Below are positions 11,318 to 33,117 of a stretch of DNA of 37,573 nucleotides, one piece after another. A program made the position numbers and the translations under genes. The DNA is taken from the NCBI GenBank assembly GCA_026710105.1, contig JAPORR010000087.1, forward strand, positions 1 through 37,573, written 5' to 3'. Within the stretch, counting starts at the first letter, position 1; every line of letters begins with the position of its first letter. The notes beneath the pieces are model-generated. The model did not search any database. It was not told where the DNA came from and saw only the letters and a program-made list of their open reading frames with translations. Origin of the DNA: Alphaproteobacteria bacterium (GTDB lineage: Bacteria > Pseudomonadota > Alphaproteobacteria > Bin95).

Positions 11318-12037
11318 ATGGCAGCACTCGAAGTCGAAATCTGGCGCGGAGAGGGTAATGACGGCAGCTGGCGGTGCTATGCGGTGCCGCACCAGGCCAA
11401 CCAGACCGTGCTCGATGTGGTTACACATGTGCAGCGCCATATCGACCCTTCGCTCGCCTATCGGTTTGCCTGCCGGGTGGGAATGTGCGGCTCCTGCGCG
11501 ATGACCGTAAACGGCCGCCCGCGCTGGACTTGCCGCACCCATGTTTCACGTGTTTCCCGCAAGGGCCGGCTGCGCATCAGTCCGCTCCGCAACCTGCCGG
11601 TCATCCGGGACCTCGCCGTCGATATGGCGCCCTTTTTCGAGAAATGGCGCGACGCAGAGGCTCGCTTCGTGCCGTCGCCTGTGCCTGTAGAGGAGCCCGT
11701 CCGCCCCGGCGAGCCGGCGCGCAAGGCCGCCGATGCTGGTATCGAGTGCATCAATTGCGCCATCTGTTACGCCGCCTGCGACAGTGTGGCCTGGAATCCG
11801 GACTATCCAGGCCCGGCCGCGCTGAACCGCCTCTGGACCCTGGTAAACGACCGGCGCGACGGCGACCAGGATGGTCATCTGGAGGCAGCTGGTACAGGCT
11901 GCCACCTCTGCCGTAGCCACCAGGAATGTGCCGAGGTCTGCCCAACTAACCTCAATCCGACCACTGCCATCGCCGGTCTCAAGCGCGAGGTCTTCCGCCG
12001 CACACTTGCCCGCCCACCGTGGGAGGGGCGACAATGA
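11318..12037 (+). CDS. Succinate dehydrogenase/fumarate reductase-like iron-sulphur subunit
   Basis: A 239-residue SdhB/FrdB-type protein that carries electrons from the flavoprotein to the membrane quinone site. The ferredoxin-like domain has the [2Fe-2S] ligands Cys52, Cys57, Cys60 and Cys72. The C-terminal domain has CxxCxxCxxxC at 144-154 and Cys198-x5-Cys204-x3-Cys208-Pro, giving ligands for the [4Fe-4S] and [3Fe-4S] clusters; an extra Cys195 precedes them. Two short linkers make it divergent from the mitochondrial-type SdhB normally found in this group. The ATG at 11318 is chosen because the N-terminal strand (ALEVEIWRG) begins there. Its stop overlaps the next ATG. First gene of a B-C-D-A operon. 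Confidence 0.85.
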   Translation: MAALEVEIWRGEGNDGSWRCYAVPHQANQTVLDVVTHVQRHIDPSLAYRFACRVGMCGSCAMTVNGRPRWTCRTHVSRVSRKGRLRISPLRNLPVIRDLAVDMAPFFEKWRDAEARFVPSPVPVEEPVRPGEPARKAADAGIECINCAICYAACDSVAWNPDYPGPAALNRLWTLVNDRRDGDQDGHLEAAGTGCHLCRSHQECAEVCPTNLNPTTAIAGLKREVFRRTLARPPWEGRQ

Positions 12038-12360
12038 AGGAGGCGTGGCTGTTCACGGTTCAGCGCCTCTCGGCCCTGGTTTTGGCACCGCTGGTACTGC
12101 TGCATCTTGGCGTCATCCTCTATGCAGTCCGGGACGGTCTCTCCGCCGAGGAAATCCTGGCGCGCACCCAAGGCAGCCAGCTCTGGGGTGTGGTCTACGG
12201 GCTATTCGTGTTCGCGGCGGCCATCCATGCGCCCATCGGACTCCGCGCCGTGCTCAGAGAATGGGTCGGTTGGCGGGGCGCAGGACTCGACATCGCGATG
12301 GGGCTGTTCGGTTTACTACTGCTGGCGCTCGGCCTGCGTGCTCTGGCGGCCGTGCTGTGA
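12034..12360 (+). CDS. SdhC/FrdC-like membrane anchor subunit 1
   Basis: A 108-residue protein with three hydrophobic helices, the size of a succinate dehydrogenase/fumarate reductase membrane anchor. Helix 1 contains QRLSALVLAPLVLLHLG and helix 2 contains AAAIHAPIGLRAVL; His29 and His67/68 are candidate heme b ligands. It would anchor the catalytic subunits and form part of the quinone site with the following protein. The ATG at 12034 overlaps the stop of the iron-sulphur gene (ATGA) and is preceded by GGGAGGGG. The conserved pattern RLS...H...H..xGxR is shared with the next subunit, suggesting the two arose by duplication of one cytochrome b-type ancestor. Confidence 0.8.
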   Translation: MKEAWLFTVQRLSALVLAPLVLLHLGVILYAVRDGLSAEEILARTQGSQLWGVVYGLFVFAAAIHAPIGLRAVLREWVGWRGAGLDIAMGLFGLLLLALGLRALAAVL

Positions 12361-12683
12361 GGCATGGATCCTGGTGGGCCTTCCTGCTGCACCGGCTTTC
12401 CGGCGTGGCATTAGCGGTTTTCCTGCCATTCCATTTCTTCGTCCTAGGTCTTGCGGTGGAGCGTGCCGCGCTCAACGACGTGCTTGATTGGGCAGATAAT
12501 CTCTGGGTCAAGCTCGCCGAAGCAGGGCTGGTCGTTCTACTGGCGCTCCACCTGACAGGTGGGGTGCGGGTGCTGCTGCTTGAATTCGGGCGCTGGTCCG
12601 ACAGGCAGCAGTCGCGGATTGCGCTTGCCGGCGGGCTCGCGCTGCTGGCCGGATTCGGCTTCCTGGCGGCGGCCTTCGCATGA
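12357..12683 (+). CDS. SdhC/SdhD-like cytochrome b membrane anchor subunit 2
   Basis: A 108-residue membrane protein with three helices. It has the motif HRLSGVALAVFLPFHFF, the classical SdhC signature HRxSG, and in helix 2 LHLTGGVRVL with His65, the usual heme b axial ligand context. The GTG at 12357 overlaps the previous TGA (GTGA) and fits the start of homology; the open frame extends further upstream only as a shadow of the preceding genes. It pairs with the previous protein to hold heme and quinone in the inner membrane. Its stop overlaps the ATG of the flavoprotein gene. This ORF is easily missed because its true start is an overlapping GTG. Confidence 0.78.
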   Translation: MRHGSWWAFLLHRLSGVALAVFLPFHFFVLGLAVERAALNDVLDWADNLWVKLAEAGLVVLLALHLTGGVRVLLLEFGRWSDRQQSRIALAGGLALLAGFGFLAAAFA

Positions 12684-14410
12684 TCGAGCGTATGGAGCGG
12701 GACATACTAGTCCTCGGCTCCGGCGGCGCTGGGTTGTTCGCCGCACTGCACGCCTACCGCGCCGATCCTGCCCTCGACATCGCTGTCGCGACCAAAGGCC
12801 TGCTCGGGAAGAGCGGCTGCACACGCATGGTGCAGGGCGGTTACAATGCGGCGCTGGCGCCCGAAGACAGCCTTGAGCGTCATTTCATGGACACAATTGA
12901 AGGCGGTGCCTGGATCAACCACCAGGAGCTGGCCTGGACGCTGGTCGCGGGGGCGGTTGGGCGCATTCGAGAACTGGAAGACGAGCTCGGCTGCTATTTC
13001 GACCGCAACCCCGACGGCAGCATTCACCAGAAGGCTTTCGCCGGGCAGACTTTCGACCGCACCATCCACAAGGGGGACCTTACTGGCATCGAGATCGTCA
13101 ATAGGCTGATGGAGCAGGTCTGGGCGCGGGCGGTGACGCGGCTGGAGGAACATCGGGCGGTGGCCCTGATACCTTCGCAGGACGGCGAGCGGCTGGCGGG
13201 CGCACTGCTTATCGATATCCGCAGTGGTGTGCTTCGCTTCGTACGGGCGAAGGCCGTGCTTCTGGCGACCGGCGGTGGGCCTACCATGTACCGTTACCAC
13301 ACGCCGTCGGGCGACAAGAGTTGCGACGGCATGGCGCTGGCGCTGGAAGCAGGCCTCGCGCTTCGCGATATGGAGATGGTGCAGTTTCACCCGACTGGCC
13401 TCTATGCCGGGCCGGCCACGCGTATGACCGGCACGGTTCTGGAGGAAGGCCTGCGGGGTGCCGGCGGCTATCTGCTCGGCGGTGACGGCGCGCGCTTTAT
13501 GACGCGTTATGACGCCCGGCTGGAGCGGGCCACTCGCGATATCGTTAGCCGCGCCATGGCGCACGAGATGCGCGCAGGCAATGTTACCGGAAACGGTGGA
13601 CTCTATATCTCCATGGCCCATCTCGGCCCGGACATGGTGGCCACGCGCTTCAAGGGCATGGTGGAACGCTGCCGAGACTGCGGTTTTGATCTCGCCGGCG
13701 GGTTGGTGGAGGTGGTACCGACGGCGCATTACATGATGGGCGGCGTGACCTTCGAGCCAGATACGAGCACGGCCATGCCAGGCCTCTATGCCGCGGGCGA
13801 GGATACTGGTGGCGTCCATGGCGCGAACCGGCTCGGCGGCAATGGTGTCGCCAATTCCACCGTCTATGGCGGTATCGCTGGCGACCAGATGGCAGTGGAC
13901 GCTAGGCGGCTGCGTGCCTTCCCCGACGCCGACGAGACGGTTCTGGAGGCCGCTGTAGCGCGTTGTCTCAGTGTCCTTGACCGGCCGCCTGGCGATCTAG
14001 CAGGCATCCGCACACGCCTCTCGGACCTGATGTGGGACGAGGTCGGTATCCTGCGCTCGGCCGGGAGCCTCGAACACGCACGGATCGGGCTCGCTGACTT
14101 GGCGGCGGAGGTAGCGGCGGCCGGCGCGGCTGGCAGCGGGCGCGCCTTCAACCTCGCCTGGCAGGAACGGCTGAATCTTGAGAGCCTGGTGACCGTCTCG
14201 CGCGCGATTGCAGTGGCAGCTTGCGCTCGCGAGGACTCGCGTGGCGCGCATTACCGCGAGGATTTCCCGGAGATCGATGATCTTGCTGCCACGCGCTATA
14301 CGACCGTGCGCCTGGAAGACAGCGCCTTTGCCGCATCCTCAGAGCCGGTCGCCTTCACTCGCGTCAGACCGGGTGAAACATTGGTCCCGAACGGTCTGGA
14401 TCGGCCCTGA
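12680..14410 (+). CDS. Succinate dehydrogenase/fumarate reductase-like flavoprotein subunit, atypical
   Basis: A 576-residue FAD-dependent dehydrogenase of the SdhA/FrdA family. The dinucleotide-binding motif GSGGAGLF is at 13-20. Dicarboxylate-site elements are kept: HPTG (237-240), EEGLRG (255-260), Arg286 in TRDIVSRA, HYMMGG (350-355) and HGANRLGGN (380-388). The notable change is in the loop KSGCTRMVQGG: classical SdhA/FrdA has R-S-H-T with the His covalently bound to FAD, and here Cys47 occupies that place. FAD is therefore either non-covalent, as in L-aspartate oxidase, or linked through Cys. The rest of the operon (iron-sulphur and two heme-type anchors) says this is a membrane quinone-linked enzyme rather than aspartate oxidase. 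Substrate could be succinate, fumarate or a related dicarboxylate. Confidence 0.85.
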   Translation: MIERMERDILVLGSGGAGLFAALHAYRADPALDIAVATKGLLGKSGCTRMVQGGYNAALAPEDSLERHFMDTIEGGAWINHQELAWTLVAGAVGRIRELEDELGCYFDRNPDGSIHQKAFAGQTFDRTIHKGDLTGIEIVNRLMEQVWARAVTRLEEHRAVALIPSQDGERLAGALLIDIRSGVLRFVRAKAVLLATGGGPTMYRYHTPSGDKSCDGMALALEAGLALRDMEMVQFHPTGLYAGPATRMTGTVLEEGLRGAGGYLLGGDGARFMTRYDARLERATRDIVSRAMAHEMRAGNVTGNGGLYISMAHLGPDMVATRFKGMVERCRDCGFDLAGGLVEVVPTAHYMMGGVTFEPDTSTAMPGLYAAGEDTGGVHGANRLGGNGVANSTVYGGIAGDQMAVDARRLRAFPDADETVLEAAVARCLSVLDRPPGDLAGIRTRLSDLMWDEVGILRSAGSLEHARIGLADLAAEVAAAGAAGSGRAFNLAWQERLNLESLVTVSRAIAVAACAREDSRGAHYREDFPEIDDLAATRYTTVRLEDSAFAASSEPVAFTRVRPGETLVPNGLDRP

Positions 14411-30465: not shown

Positions 30466-33117
30466 GTGGAACTCCTGTTTCTGGCATTGCTGGTCCTGAT
30501 CATGGCCGTAGCGTTAGGGTCGGGCTTCCCGGTCGCCTTTGCGCTGCCAGGCTCTGCCATTCTGTCTATCGGGCTCGCCGCCGCTGCCGGTTACCTGTTT
30601 GCGGCAGACACAGATGCGTTCTTCCATTCCGGCGGGCCGTCGCAATGGCTCTCGGCCGGGGTGACGAATCTGAGAGGCGTCTATTGGGAGGTCGAGCGGG
30701 ATACGCTGATCGCCATCCCGCTGTTCATCTTCATGGGCATCATGCTGCAGCGCTCCAGGATTGCCGAGGACCTGCTGGTGACCATGGCGCAGTTATTCGG
30801 TCCCGTACCGGGCGGGCTTGGCATTTCGGTGGTTTTCGTCGGTGCGCTGCTCGCAGCCACGACCGGCATTGTCGGCGCTACGGTGGTGGCTATGGGCCTG
30901 ATCTCGCTGCCGGCCATGCTGCGCAATCGCTACTCGCCCTCGCTCGCAACCGGCACTATCGCCGCCTCTGGCACGCTCGGGCAGATCATTCCGCCGTCGA
31001 TTGTGCTCATCATCCTGGCCGATCAGCTTGCGAGTGCGACTGACCAGGCGAGCACGGCCCGCAAGGTGCTCTACAAGGACAATACTGGCGAACTGACTAT
31101 GCCGTCGGCTTTCGATGTCTCTTCGACCAGCGCGGGTGAGATGTTTTTGGGTGCCTTTATCCCGGGGTTGGTGTTGGTCGGCCTCTATATGGTCTTCATT
31201 CTGGGCGCGGCTCTCTTGCGCCCGACGCTCGCGCCGGCGGTTCCCTATGACGGTGCTCGAGACCGGCACTTCGTCGGTCGTGTACTGCTGACTCTGGTGC
31301 CGCCCTTGACGCTGATTTTCCTCGTGCTGGGTTCGATTATCAGCGGTATCGCCACTGTTAATCAGGCGGGCGCCATTGGCGCTGTTGGCGCTCTGGTCAT
31401 GGCTGGTTACCGGCTTTATGGAGACGGGCGGCTGACCTATGTGCCGGCATTGCTGGCGCTGTCGGCGTTGGCGGTGCTCGGCTATGCGCTCGCCAATTAC
31501 GAGATGAATCTGAAGGCTGCGGACAGTGCTGAGGATTATATCGGTATCCTGATCGGCGTCATCGGTTCGGGCCTCCTTATGGCGTCGTTGTTGTGGAGCG
31601 GTTGGCGGGTCTTCAGGATCGACCGCACGCTGCATGCCGTGATGCTGGAAACGGCCAAGACCACGTCCCTGGTGTTTATCATCCTGCTCGGTGCCGCCAT
31701 GCTGACGGCGGCCTTCCGGGCCTTTGGTGGCGAGGAGCTAGTAAGGGATTTCCTGCAAAGCCTGCCCGGCGGCTTCTGGGCGCAATTCGTGATCGTGATG
31801 GCTGTGATTTTCGTGCTCGGTTTCTTCCTCGATTTCATCGAAATCGCCGTGGTGGTCGTGCCGATCGTCGCCCCGATCCTGTTGATGGACCCTTCCGCCA
31901 ATGTCACCGCCGTCTGGCTCGGCGTGATGATCGGGCTCAATATCCAGACCTCCTTCCTCACGCCTCCTTTTGGCTTCGCGCTCTTCTATCTGCGCGGCGT
32001 TGCTTCGGCCGCGGTGCGCACCGTGCAGATGTACAAGGGTGTGATCGCCTTCATCCTACTGCAATTGCTGGCTCTCGCCATTGTCGGCCTCGCGCCGTCA
32101 CTAGTGAACTATCTGCCGAATCGCCTCTCTCTGCTCGCGGAAACGGCCCCGCCGCCGATCAATCCGCGCCTGCAGGCCTGTATCGAGGACTATGTGTTTG
32201 CCGAATATGAAGTCCGGCGCCCCGAGCTGGACCGAGCTATTGCAGCAGCGCGCGCGCTTGATTCCGGTGTCCTGCCACAGAAGACAGCCCGCCAGCTTGT
32301 GGGCGCGATTGACGGTGCCGCCGACGTCTTCGCGCTTGTCGAGGCAGTGCGTGCCGCAAAGAAAGAGACCACCGCTGCTGCAATTCCCTATGCGCCGTTG
32401 CATCGCGAGGTGCGCGCCCTCCAGCGCGAGATTCGCCGCGACCGCGCCATCCACGCGCGGCTTATCCAGGAAATCGGGCGTACGGAGCGCCGTGGCGGCG
32501 AGATTGATGCCCTGAAAGCCGAGGCCGAACAGCTGGAGCGCGAGGCGGCGGCCCTCGAAACGCGCATTCCCGCCCGTTGGGCGGCTGAGAGCAAGGCGTT
32601 CCAAGCGCTCCGCCAGGCTGAGCTCAAGGCCGAGCAGACTTATCGCCGCTCGGTCGATCAGACTTATGACACGCTGGCCGAGATCATCGAATTGCTGCGC
32701 GGCGCGGAGGCGCTGGCCGCGACCCTGCCGGCGGCGCAAGGGCTTGGCGAGGCGCTTGCAGACCTCGCGCCGAAAGCAGCAAGTGAGCAGGTGCGCGAGG
32801 TGGAGCGTGCTCTCGGTACCGTGGCTAGTGGCCGGGCATTGCGCTCCCAGCTGTCGAAGGTTCGCAAAGCGTTGAGCGCCCGCAAGCCCGATCCTGTCAA
32901 GGCGGAGAGTGAGCTTCAAACAACGCTTCAGCAATTACGGGCCGAGATCCTCTGGCGGCAGGAGGCCGCAACTGCGTTACTGCCGGGGCTGGAACGTTTC
33001 GAGGAGGCGTTGCGCGGCACGGTAGGCCTGCGGCGGCAGCCGCGCCTGCCCAGAGACGTTGCGCTTGAGGTCGCGGCCTGCAGTGCGGAGCATCGGAGCC
33101 TCGCGCTCTATTTCTGA
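30466..33117 (+). CDS. dctM: TRAP transporter large permease DctM with C-terminal coiled-coil extension
   Basis: An 883-residue protein. Residues 1-555 are a DctM permease with about 12 helices; family motifs include FPLFIFMG-like AIPLFIFMGIML (83-94), VGALLAATTGIVGATV (125-140), SGTLGQIIPPS (168-178) and TPPFGFALFYLRG (499-511). A soluble insert at about 195-225 separates two helices. After PSLVNYLPNRLS the chain continues for about 320 soluble residues rich in Ala, Glu, Arg and Gln, with heptad-like stretches (REVRALQREIRRDRAIHA, AEAEQLEREAAALE), so probably a long cytoplasmic coiled coil. Ordinary DctM proteins are 425-650 residues. The GTG start at 30466 is preceded by GAGGGG. The extension is in frame and has normal GC content, so it is a real fusion rather than readthrough. 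Confidence 0.9.
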   Translation: MELLFLALLVLIMAVALGSGFPVAFALPGSAILSIGLAAAAGYLFAADTDAFFHSGGPSQWLSAGVTNLRGVYWEVERDTLIAIPLFIFMGIMLQRSRIAEDLLVTMAQLFGPVPGGLGISVVFVGALLAATTGIVGATVVAMGLISLPAMLRNRYSPSLATGTIAASGTLGQIIPPSIVLIILADQLASATDQASTARKVLYKDNTGELTMPSAFDVSSTSAGEMFLGAFIPGLVLVGLYMVFILGAALLRPTLAPAVPYDGARDRHFVGRVLLTLVPPLTLIFLVLGSIISGIATVNQAGAIGAVGALVMAGYRLYGDGRLTYVPALLALSALAVLGYALANYEMNLKAADSAEDYIGILIGVIGSGLLMASLLWSGWRVFRIDRTLHAVMLETAKTTSLVFIILLGAAMLTAAFRAFGGEELVRDFLQSLPGGFWAQFVIVMAVIFVLGFFLDFIEIAVVVVPIVAPILLMDPSANVTAVWLGVMIGLNIQTSFLTPPFGFALFYLRGVASAAVRTVQMYKGVIAFILLQLLALAIVGLAPSLVNYLPNRLSLLAETAPPPINPRLQACIEDYVFAEYEVRRPELDRAIAAARALDSGVLPQKTARQLVGAIDGAADVFALVEAVRAAKKETTAAAIPYAPLHREVRALQREIRRDRAIHARLIQEIGRTERRGGEIDALKAEAEQLEREAAALETRIPARWAAESKAFQALRQAELKAEQTYRRSVDQTYDTLAEIIELLRGAEALAATLPAAQGLGEALADLAPKAASEQVREVERALGTVASGRALRSQLSKVRKALSARKPDPVKAESELQTTLQQLRAEILWRQEAATALLPGLERFEEALRGTVGLRRQPRLPRDVALEVAACSAEHRSLALYF

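Follow-up and report, generated by a model that had tools for sequence, protein, structure and literature searches.

The DNA analysed here (the window) is a stretch of 37,573 nucleotides from an alphaproteobacterial genome (assembly GCA_026710105.1, contig JAPORR010000087.1), which carries on its forward strand, at positions 11318-14410, a four-gene set of the complex II type. The encoded complex very probably acts in sulfonate catabolism, and we infer, with fair confidence as to both substrate and direction, that it is a quinone-linked 3-sulfopropionate dehydrogenase. Read directly from the sequence were the complex II architecture, the residues Cys47 and Glu255 of the flavoprotein, and the linkage of the complex to a class I fumarase-like hydratase and to genes of sulfonate metabolism.

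In the proposed route, 3-sulfopropionate (succinate in which one carboxylate is replaced by a sulfonate) would be oxidised to 3-sulfoacrylate, the analogue of fumarate, by a membrane-bound complex in which electrons travel from flavin adenine dinucleotide (FAD) by way of the iron-sulfur clusters and heme b and are delivered to quinone. The partner hydratase would then hydrate sulfoacrylate with a predicted regiochemistry; in the commonest layout, the product would be 3-sulfolactate (the malate analogue), which the sulfolactate sulfo-lyase SuyAB would cleave to pyruvate and sulfite. The same order of steps, from 3-sulfopropionate via sulfoacrylate to sulfolactate, is given for Roseovarius nubinhibens in a thesis (J. 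Mayer), as cited in PMC11489063; the thesis, represented here by that citation, may already name these genes. No published gene or enzyme for the 3-sulfopropionate dehydrogenase step was found in a literature search. Roseovarius nubinhibens ISM is a user of the compound according to the thesis, and Cupriavidus necator H16 is reported to excrete it. PMC11489063 names homotaurine as a source of 3-sulfopropionate and, for gut Firmicutes, sulfoquinovose, which is converted via dihydroxypropanesulfonate (DHPS); on bacterial breakdown of 3-sulfopropionate, according to that paper, nothing besides this one thesis has been published. If correct, the assignment would fill a gap in the bacterial breakdown of natural sulfonates by supplying the first step of 3-sulfopropionate mineralisation, and with a named gene set this part of the sulfur cycle could be traced in genomes and examined by knock-out. 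The complex would also provide a natural experiment on the complex II residues that set dicarboxylate versus sulfonate specificity, and it bears on whether Cys can replace the flavin-linking His held to be essential for succinate oxidation.

Hydratase genes were found on the same DNA as the complex in 72 of the 80 loci from named genomes. Two types were distinguished: a beta type, found mostly in Betaproteobacteria and located upstream of the flavoprotein gene, and an alpha type, found mostly in Alphaproteobacteria, located downstream and represented in the window's own genome. Co-occurrence was assessed in a set of 70 genomes, with contrast genomes hand-picked from those already in the analysis. 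A hydratase of either type was present in 34 of the 36 genomes with the flavoprotein and in 0 of the 34 without it (Fisher p 6e-18), and a SuyB-like protein of at least 67% identity in 17/36 and 2/34, respectively (p 1e-4), both p-values being overstated because the contrast genomes were chosen by the author and related genomes are not independent. The two flavoprotein genomes without hydratase were incomplete (75% and 83%), and those lacking the flavoprotein had nothing nearer than remote fumarases sharing about 30% identity. The co-occurrence pattern of hydratase and SuyB recurred over many families.

Recurrent neighbours of the complex were a UxaA-family pair, an Ldh_2 dehydrogenase, a D-2-hydroxyacid dehydrogenase, TauE/SafE exporters, and importers of the tripartite tricarboxylate transporter (TTT) or ATP-binding cassette (ABC) type. 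The two proteins of the UxaA pair correspond to SuyA and SuyB; the SuyB query is 81% identical to the UxaA protein encoded next to hpsN/hpsO in Cupriavidus pinatubonensis, a member of its genus for which PMC12890257 states that SuyAB has been identified. The Ldh_2 (ComC-type) protein had NF040650 (L-sulfolactate dehydrogenase) as its best NCBIfam model, with a score below the cut-off. SuyB, the ComC-type sulfolactate dehydrogenase, an SlcC-type dehydrogenase and TauE were all located inside family loci, with YeiH-type exporters also among the cluster partners. Annotated plasmids of Paracoccus, Sulfitobacter, Methylobacterium, Pseudomonas and Pseudorhizobium carried the complex together with the hydratase, and their neighbouring genes encoded TauE, a putative sulfate exporter, a sulfite dehydrogenase/oxidase, Ldh, a hydroxyacid dehydrogenase, the UxaA pair and TTT. 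An original prediction, made for this DNA without database searches, had left open a one-way reductase, a non-succinate dehydrogenase or an enzyme with an unusual flavin link; the genome context favours the second of these.

In the substrate site, His232, Glu245, Arg287, His355 and Arg390 of FrdA are kept as H237, E256, R286, H350 and R384, all invariant in the family. The site had been described as otherwise unchanged, which was correct for these five residues but not for the column of FrdA Thr244, a contact of the substrate carboxylate, nor for the region ahead of it. At this column, the Thr present in FrdA, SdhA, NadB and the canonical SdhA of the window's own genome is replaced by Glu255 (codon 13442..13444, forward strand), found as Glu in 102/102 aligned family members, so that a residue expected of succinate dehydrogenases and fumarate reductases is lacking throughout. 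The substrate-site Glu pair is preceded by an inserted loop (about residues 245-250, P-A-T-R-M-T; 13412..13429, forward strand) that is absent in FrdA/SdhA and follows the pattern T-R/K-x-T-G, with T250 and G251 invariant and R, K or H at position 248 in 102/102. Going by FrdA structures, we take Thr244 to serve one particular substrate carboxylate. The exchange then suggests that one carboxylate pocket is altered, with the other pocket and the acid-base Arg unchanged. A sulfonate substrate would be expected to alter only one of the two pockets, and Glu255 together with the inserted basic loop therefore fits such a substrate.

Cys47 (codon TGC, 12818..12820, forward strand) was aligned with FrdA His44, which forms the 8-alpha link to FAD. 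K-S-G-C47-T-R-M-V-Q-G-G pairs with R-S-H-T-V-A-x-x-G-G of FrdA/SdhA, with one residue inserted before the Cys, and the alignment is unambiguous at this column (x-T-x-x-x-Q/E-G-G), which holds His in Escherichia coli FrdA and SdhA and in the window genome's canonical SdhA, and Ser in NadB. The predicted replacement of the FAD-linking His was thus confirmed. Cys occupied the column in 102/102 family members, Rhodococcus and haloarchaea included, a count that is partly biased, as 80 of these members came from a pattern scan whose motif had two seeds, one of them the Cys; the His that carries 8-alpha-N3-histidyl-FAD in the superfamily is accordingly missing from all of them. Since the 25 family loci taken from whole-protein searches, which are free of motif bias, all had Cys as well, Cys47 is neither a chance substitution nor an error. 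It would be expected to give an 8-alpha-S-cysteinyl-FAD, or else to accompany a non-covalent FAD with raised potential. The covalent link is plausible because the Cys is invariant at this very place and the family retains R384, E256, H350 and R286, which are held to aid attachment of the flavin; engineered E. coli FrdA His44Cys, however, reportedly had no covalent flavin, which weighs against it, and on balance its formation at Cys47 is rated slightly below an even chance. In the AlphaFold model, which was computed without FAD, the Cys47 loop (residues 41-54) had a predicted local distance difference test (pLDDT) score of <50, so that no Cys-flavin distance could be derived.

Several observations weigh against a 3-sulfopropionate dehydrogenase. 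Fourteen of the 36 complex-bearing genomes, including most of those of the window's genus, lacked both SuyB and full-length Xsc. The latter was rejected as the missing desulfonation route, given the weak difference between genomes with (11/36) and without (5/34) the flavoprotein in the occurrence of Xsc above the cut-off. The beta-type hydratase was found with SuyB in 23/51 loci and 7/7 genomes and with ComC in 27/51 loci; the alpha type was less often accompanied by SuyB (2/26 loci; 10/27 genomes) or ComC (3/26). The SuyAB proteins of the window's own genome can be explained without the complex, because their genes are located in a DHPS cluster, and the haloarchaeal UxaA proteins are only about 33% identical to SuyB. 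Glutamate mutase genes (GlmL/GlmE), which would suit mesaconate chemistry, were found in 4/80 loci. Finally, in E. coli enzymes without covalent FAD the potential falls and succinate oxidation is abolished (PMC9557727), from which it follows that a Cys enzyme holding its FAD non-covalently would be biased towards reduction.

Sulfite exporters do adjoin the alpha-type hydratase. For some alpha-type lineages without SuyAB, it could be hypothesised that water is added to the sulfonated carbon, giving a hydroxysulfonate that would decay to sulfite and malonate semialdehyde. The broader proposal of a cross-domain, sulfonate-oxidising cysteinyl-FAD clade in which this branch desulfonates its substrate without a sulfo-lyase is considered rather doubtful. 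A gene for a coenzyme A (CoA)-acylating methylmalonate-semialdehyde dehydrogenase was detected in 2/26 alpha-type loci, and in that of Pseudomonas MPC6 it immediately follows the hydratase gene; with this low number, a malonate-semialdehyde route was not established by such linkage. Behind the alpha-type hydratase and beside a sulfate exporter, three loci (L141, 14359-14673; L145, 15135-15461; L146, 14479-14793) encode a small NIPSNAP-family protein.

Since some family genomes contain no known desulfonation route, sulfosuccinate or methylsuccinate could also serve as substrate. With 2-sulfosuccinate, the same complex and hydratase would produce sulfofumarate and then an unstable hydroxysulfonate that decays to sulfite and oxaloacetate. 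This would account for the altered carboxylate pocket and for lineages with sulfite exporters and sulfite dehydrogenase near the operon and no SuyAB in the stretch examined, but it leaves the linkage to SuyAB, ComC and SlcC, all of which act on sulfolactate, unexplained and is regarded as unlikely.

The exchange of the FAD-linking His for Cys would also suit a one-way reductase with a low-potential, non-covalent FAD, in which quinol reduces fumarate or sulfoacrylate. Free FAD has a potential of about -219 mV; covalent attachment lifts it to about -50 to -90 mV, and those homologues that bind FAD non-covalently reduce fumarate but fail to oxidise succinate (PMC9557727). If it lacks the FAD-linking His, an oxidising enzyme needs other means of raising the potential. 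However, the Cys is fixed in the family and shows no freedom to vary, the flavin-attachment residues are retained, and the neighbourhood is degradative, with genes for sulfonate breakdown, for sulfite exporters and for sulfite dehydrogenases. The one-way fumarate reductase of the original prediction is therefore disfavoured, and we consider this direction of catalysis very unlikely.

A C5-dicarboxylate enzyme, i.e. a methylsuccinate/mesaconate oxidoreductase whose partner hydratase would work as a mesaconase, would agree with the mesaconase activity known among class I fumarases (PMC4682846) and with the glutamate mutase genes, which lie near only four of the 80 loci. These loci belong to Rhodospirillales/Kiloniellaceae genomes (L059, L063, L064 and L070), and the hydratase is absent from the DNA of three of them. 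Three of the four also contain TauE-type exporters, sulfur genes dominate elsewhere, and a methyl group would leave the altered carboxylate pocket unexplained, so that this function appears very unlikely. Equally unlikely is an ordinary duplicate of succinate dehydrogenase with a neutral substitution, which would share the fold, the subunits and the 30-37% identity to SdhA and is rejected by the strong conservation of both Cys and Glu, which extends over phyla and domains, the monophyly of the group, its tight linkage to a hydratase of its own and the retention of a canonical SdhA in the same genome.

In a maximum-likelihood tree, the Cys flavoproteins formed one group with 100/100 support, separate from NadB, SdhA and FrdA, the exact placement of FrdA being unsure owing to its long branch. 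The clade spans Proteobacteria, Rhodococcus (Rhodococcus jostii RHA1) and two haloarchaea; the family was detected in 22/289 genomes of a class sample and, among named genomes, was frequent in Betaproteobacteria and Alphaproteobacteria. The AlphaFold model of the flavoprotein (predicted template modelling score, pTM, 0.85) best matched Mycobacterium Sdh1 and E. coli FrdA in the PDB (TM about 0.85-0.88). The scores of the flavoprotein were below the NCBIfam cut-offs for sdhA/frdA (TIGR01812, 426/567 bits; TIGR01816, 329/727; TIGR01176, 319/933). The best model overall, matched over the whole protein, was NF004900 for TfrA (thiol:fumarate reductase), with 486 bits against a curated cut-off of 718; compared with TfrA by this family model only, the window complex is a four-subunit, quinone-type enzyme. 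Membership in NadB, TfrA or canonical Frd was rejected, since the scores lay under every curated cut-off. NadB (L-aspartate oxidase) belongs to the same flavoprotein family, likewise has no FAD-linking His and shows a longer loop in the same region, but it has Ser at the Cys column, keeps the Thr, is soluble, lacks iron-sulfur and anchor partners and falls into a separate clade.

Elsewhere in the window's genome, a canonical His-type SdhA is encoded on another contig, so that the window operon represents a second, specialised complex, as had been expected from its deviating layout. The hydratase genes are not adjacent to the operon; they are located on a different contig, C129, where an alpha and a beta gene take up positions 149-1737, and the encoded alpha-type hydratase, 74% identical to its Afifella counterpart, provides the partner in the same genome that the proposed pathway calls for. 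SuyAB is encoded on contig C48 together with HpsN-, HpsO- and HpsP-like proteins (46-54% identical to those of C. pinatubonensis) and a tripartite ATP-independent periplasmic (TRAP) transporter. Its presence is compatible with the proposed route and is not proof of it. The DHPS degradation cluster as a whole (L174, positions 1420-10475 of C48) comprises SuyB, SuyA, a LacI-type regulator, a DctP/Q/M TRAP transporter and the HpsN/O/P-like genes.

The four genes of the window operon were recovered with the coordinates and overlaps originally given, neighbours being joined by 4-base ATGA/GTGA overlaps. The order had been read as B-C-D-A; the first anchor best matches SdhD and the second SdhC, with Pfam and NCBIfam in agreement, and the order is therefore B-D-C-A. 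The first gene (11318..12037, forward strand, as for all four) encodes an SdhB/FrdB-like iron-sulfur protein of 239 residues (TIGR00384, 188 bits; cut-off 88) with 2Fe-2S, 4Fe-4S and 3Fe-4S Cys motifs, whose cluster Cys residues are all invariant (65-66 family members). An additional invariant Cys195 is located 3 residues ahead of the first 3Fe-4S Cys (11900-11945). The SdhD-like membrane anchor (12034..12360; TIGR02968, E 1.2e-8; PF01127) has H65 at the column of the heme His of E. coli SdhD, and H24 and H65 are present in 66/66 members. In the SdhC-like cytochrome b anchor, which has a GTG start (12357..12683; TIGR02970, E 6.9e-13; PF01127), H65 takes the column of E. coli SdhC heme His84, with H26 and H65 found in 67/67. 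The extra invariant pair H24 and H26 (12034-12683) would allow two hemes, where E. coli SdhCD has one, and could bind the second. The fourth gene (12680..14410) encodes the flavoprotein of 576 residues (FAD_binding_2 and Succ_DH_flav_C), the proposed catalytic subunit of 3-sulfopropionate dehydrogenase. With these two domains, a three-cluster FrdB/SdhB protein and heme anchors, the set belongs to the complex II superfamily (succinate:quinone and quinol:fumarate reductases, SQR/QFR). It shares with SdhABCD and FrdABCD the fold, the four subunits, the iron-sulfur motifs, the heme anchors, the catalytic Arg and most substrate residues, and differs in the Cys for the FAD-linking His, the Glu for Thr244, the inserted loop, the gene order, the extra invariant His in each anchor and a hydratase of its own.

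In the haloarchaeal loci, the flavoprotein and the iron-sulfur protein are encoded with no recognisable anchors alongside. Neighbouring genes encode a UxaA pair, TauE, a sulfolactate-type dehydrogenase (Haloarcula) and an ArgH-like lyase. The latter, annotated as 'argH' (L143, 8200-9702; L144, 8278-9780), scores best with ArgH and also matches XcbC of bacterial coenzyme M synthesis, which we take to form sulfoacrylate from phosphosulfolactate. Going by these matches, this lyase of the ArgH/fumarase superfamily may be a sulfoacrylate hydratase; if the role of XcbC holds, an unrelated sulfoacrylate-handling fold would fill the hydratase slot and lend independent support to the proposed pathway.

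The genes at the start of the window code for a TauD/TfdA-family dioxygenase (22-903), then a CaiB-family CoA-transferase (903-2138) and then a cytochrome P450 (2522-3934). Further along, after DctP and DctQ genes, lies a gene for a DctM-type TRAP permease of 883 residues (30466-33117), which contains three DctM stretches and is about twice the usual size.

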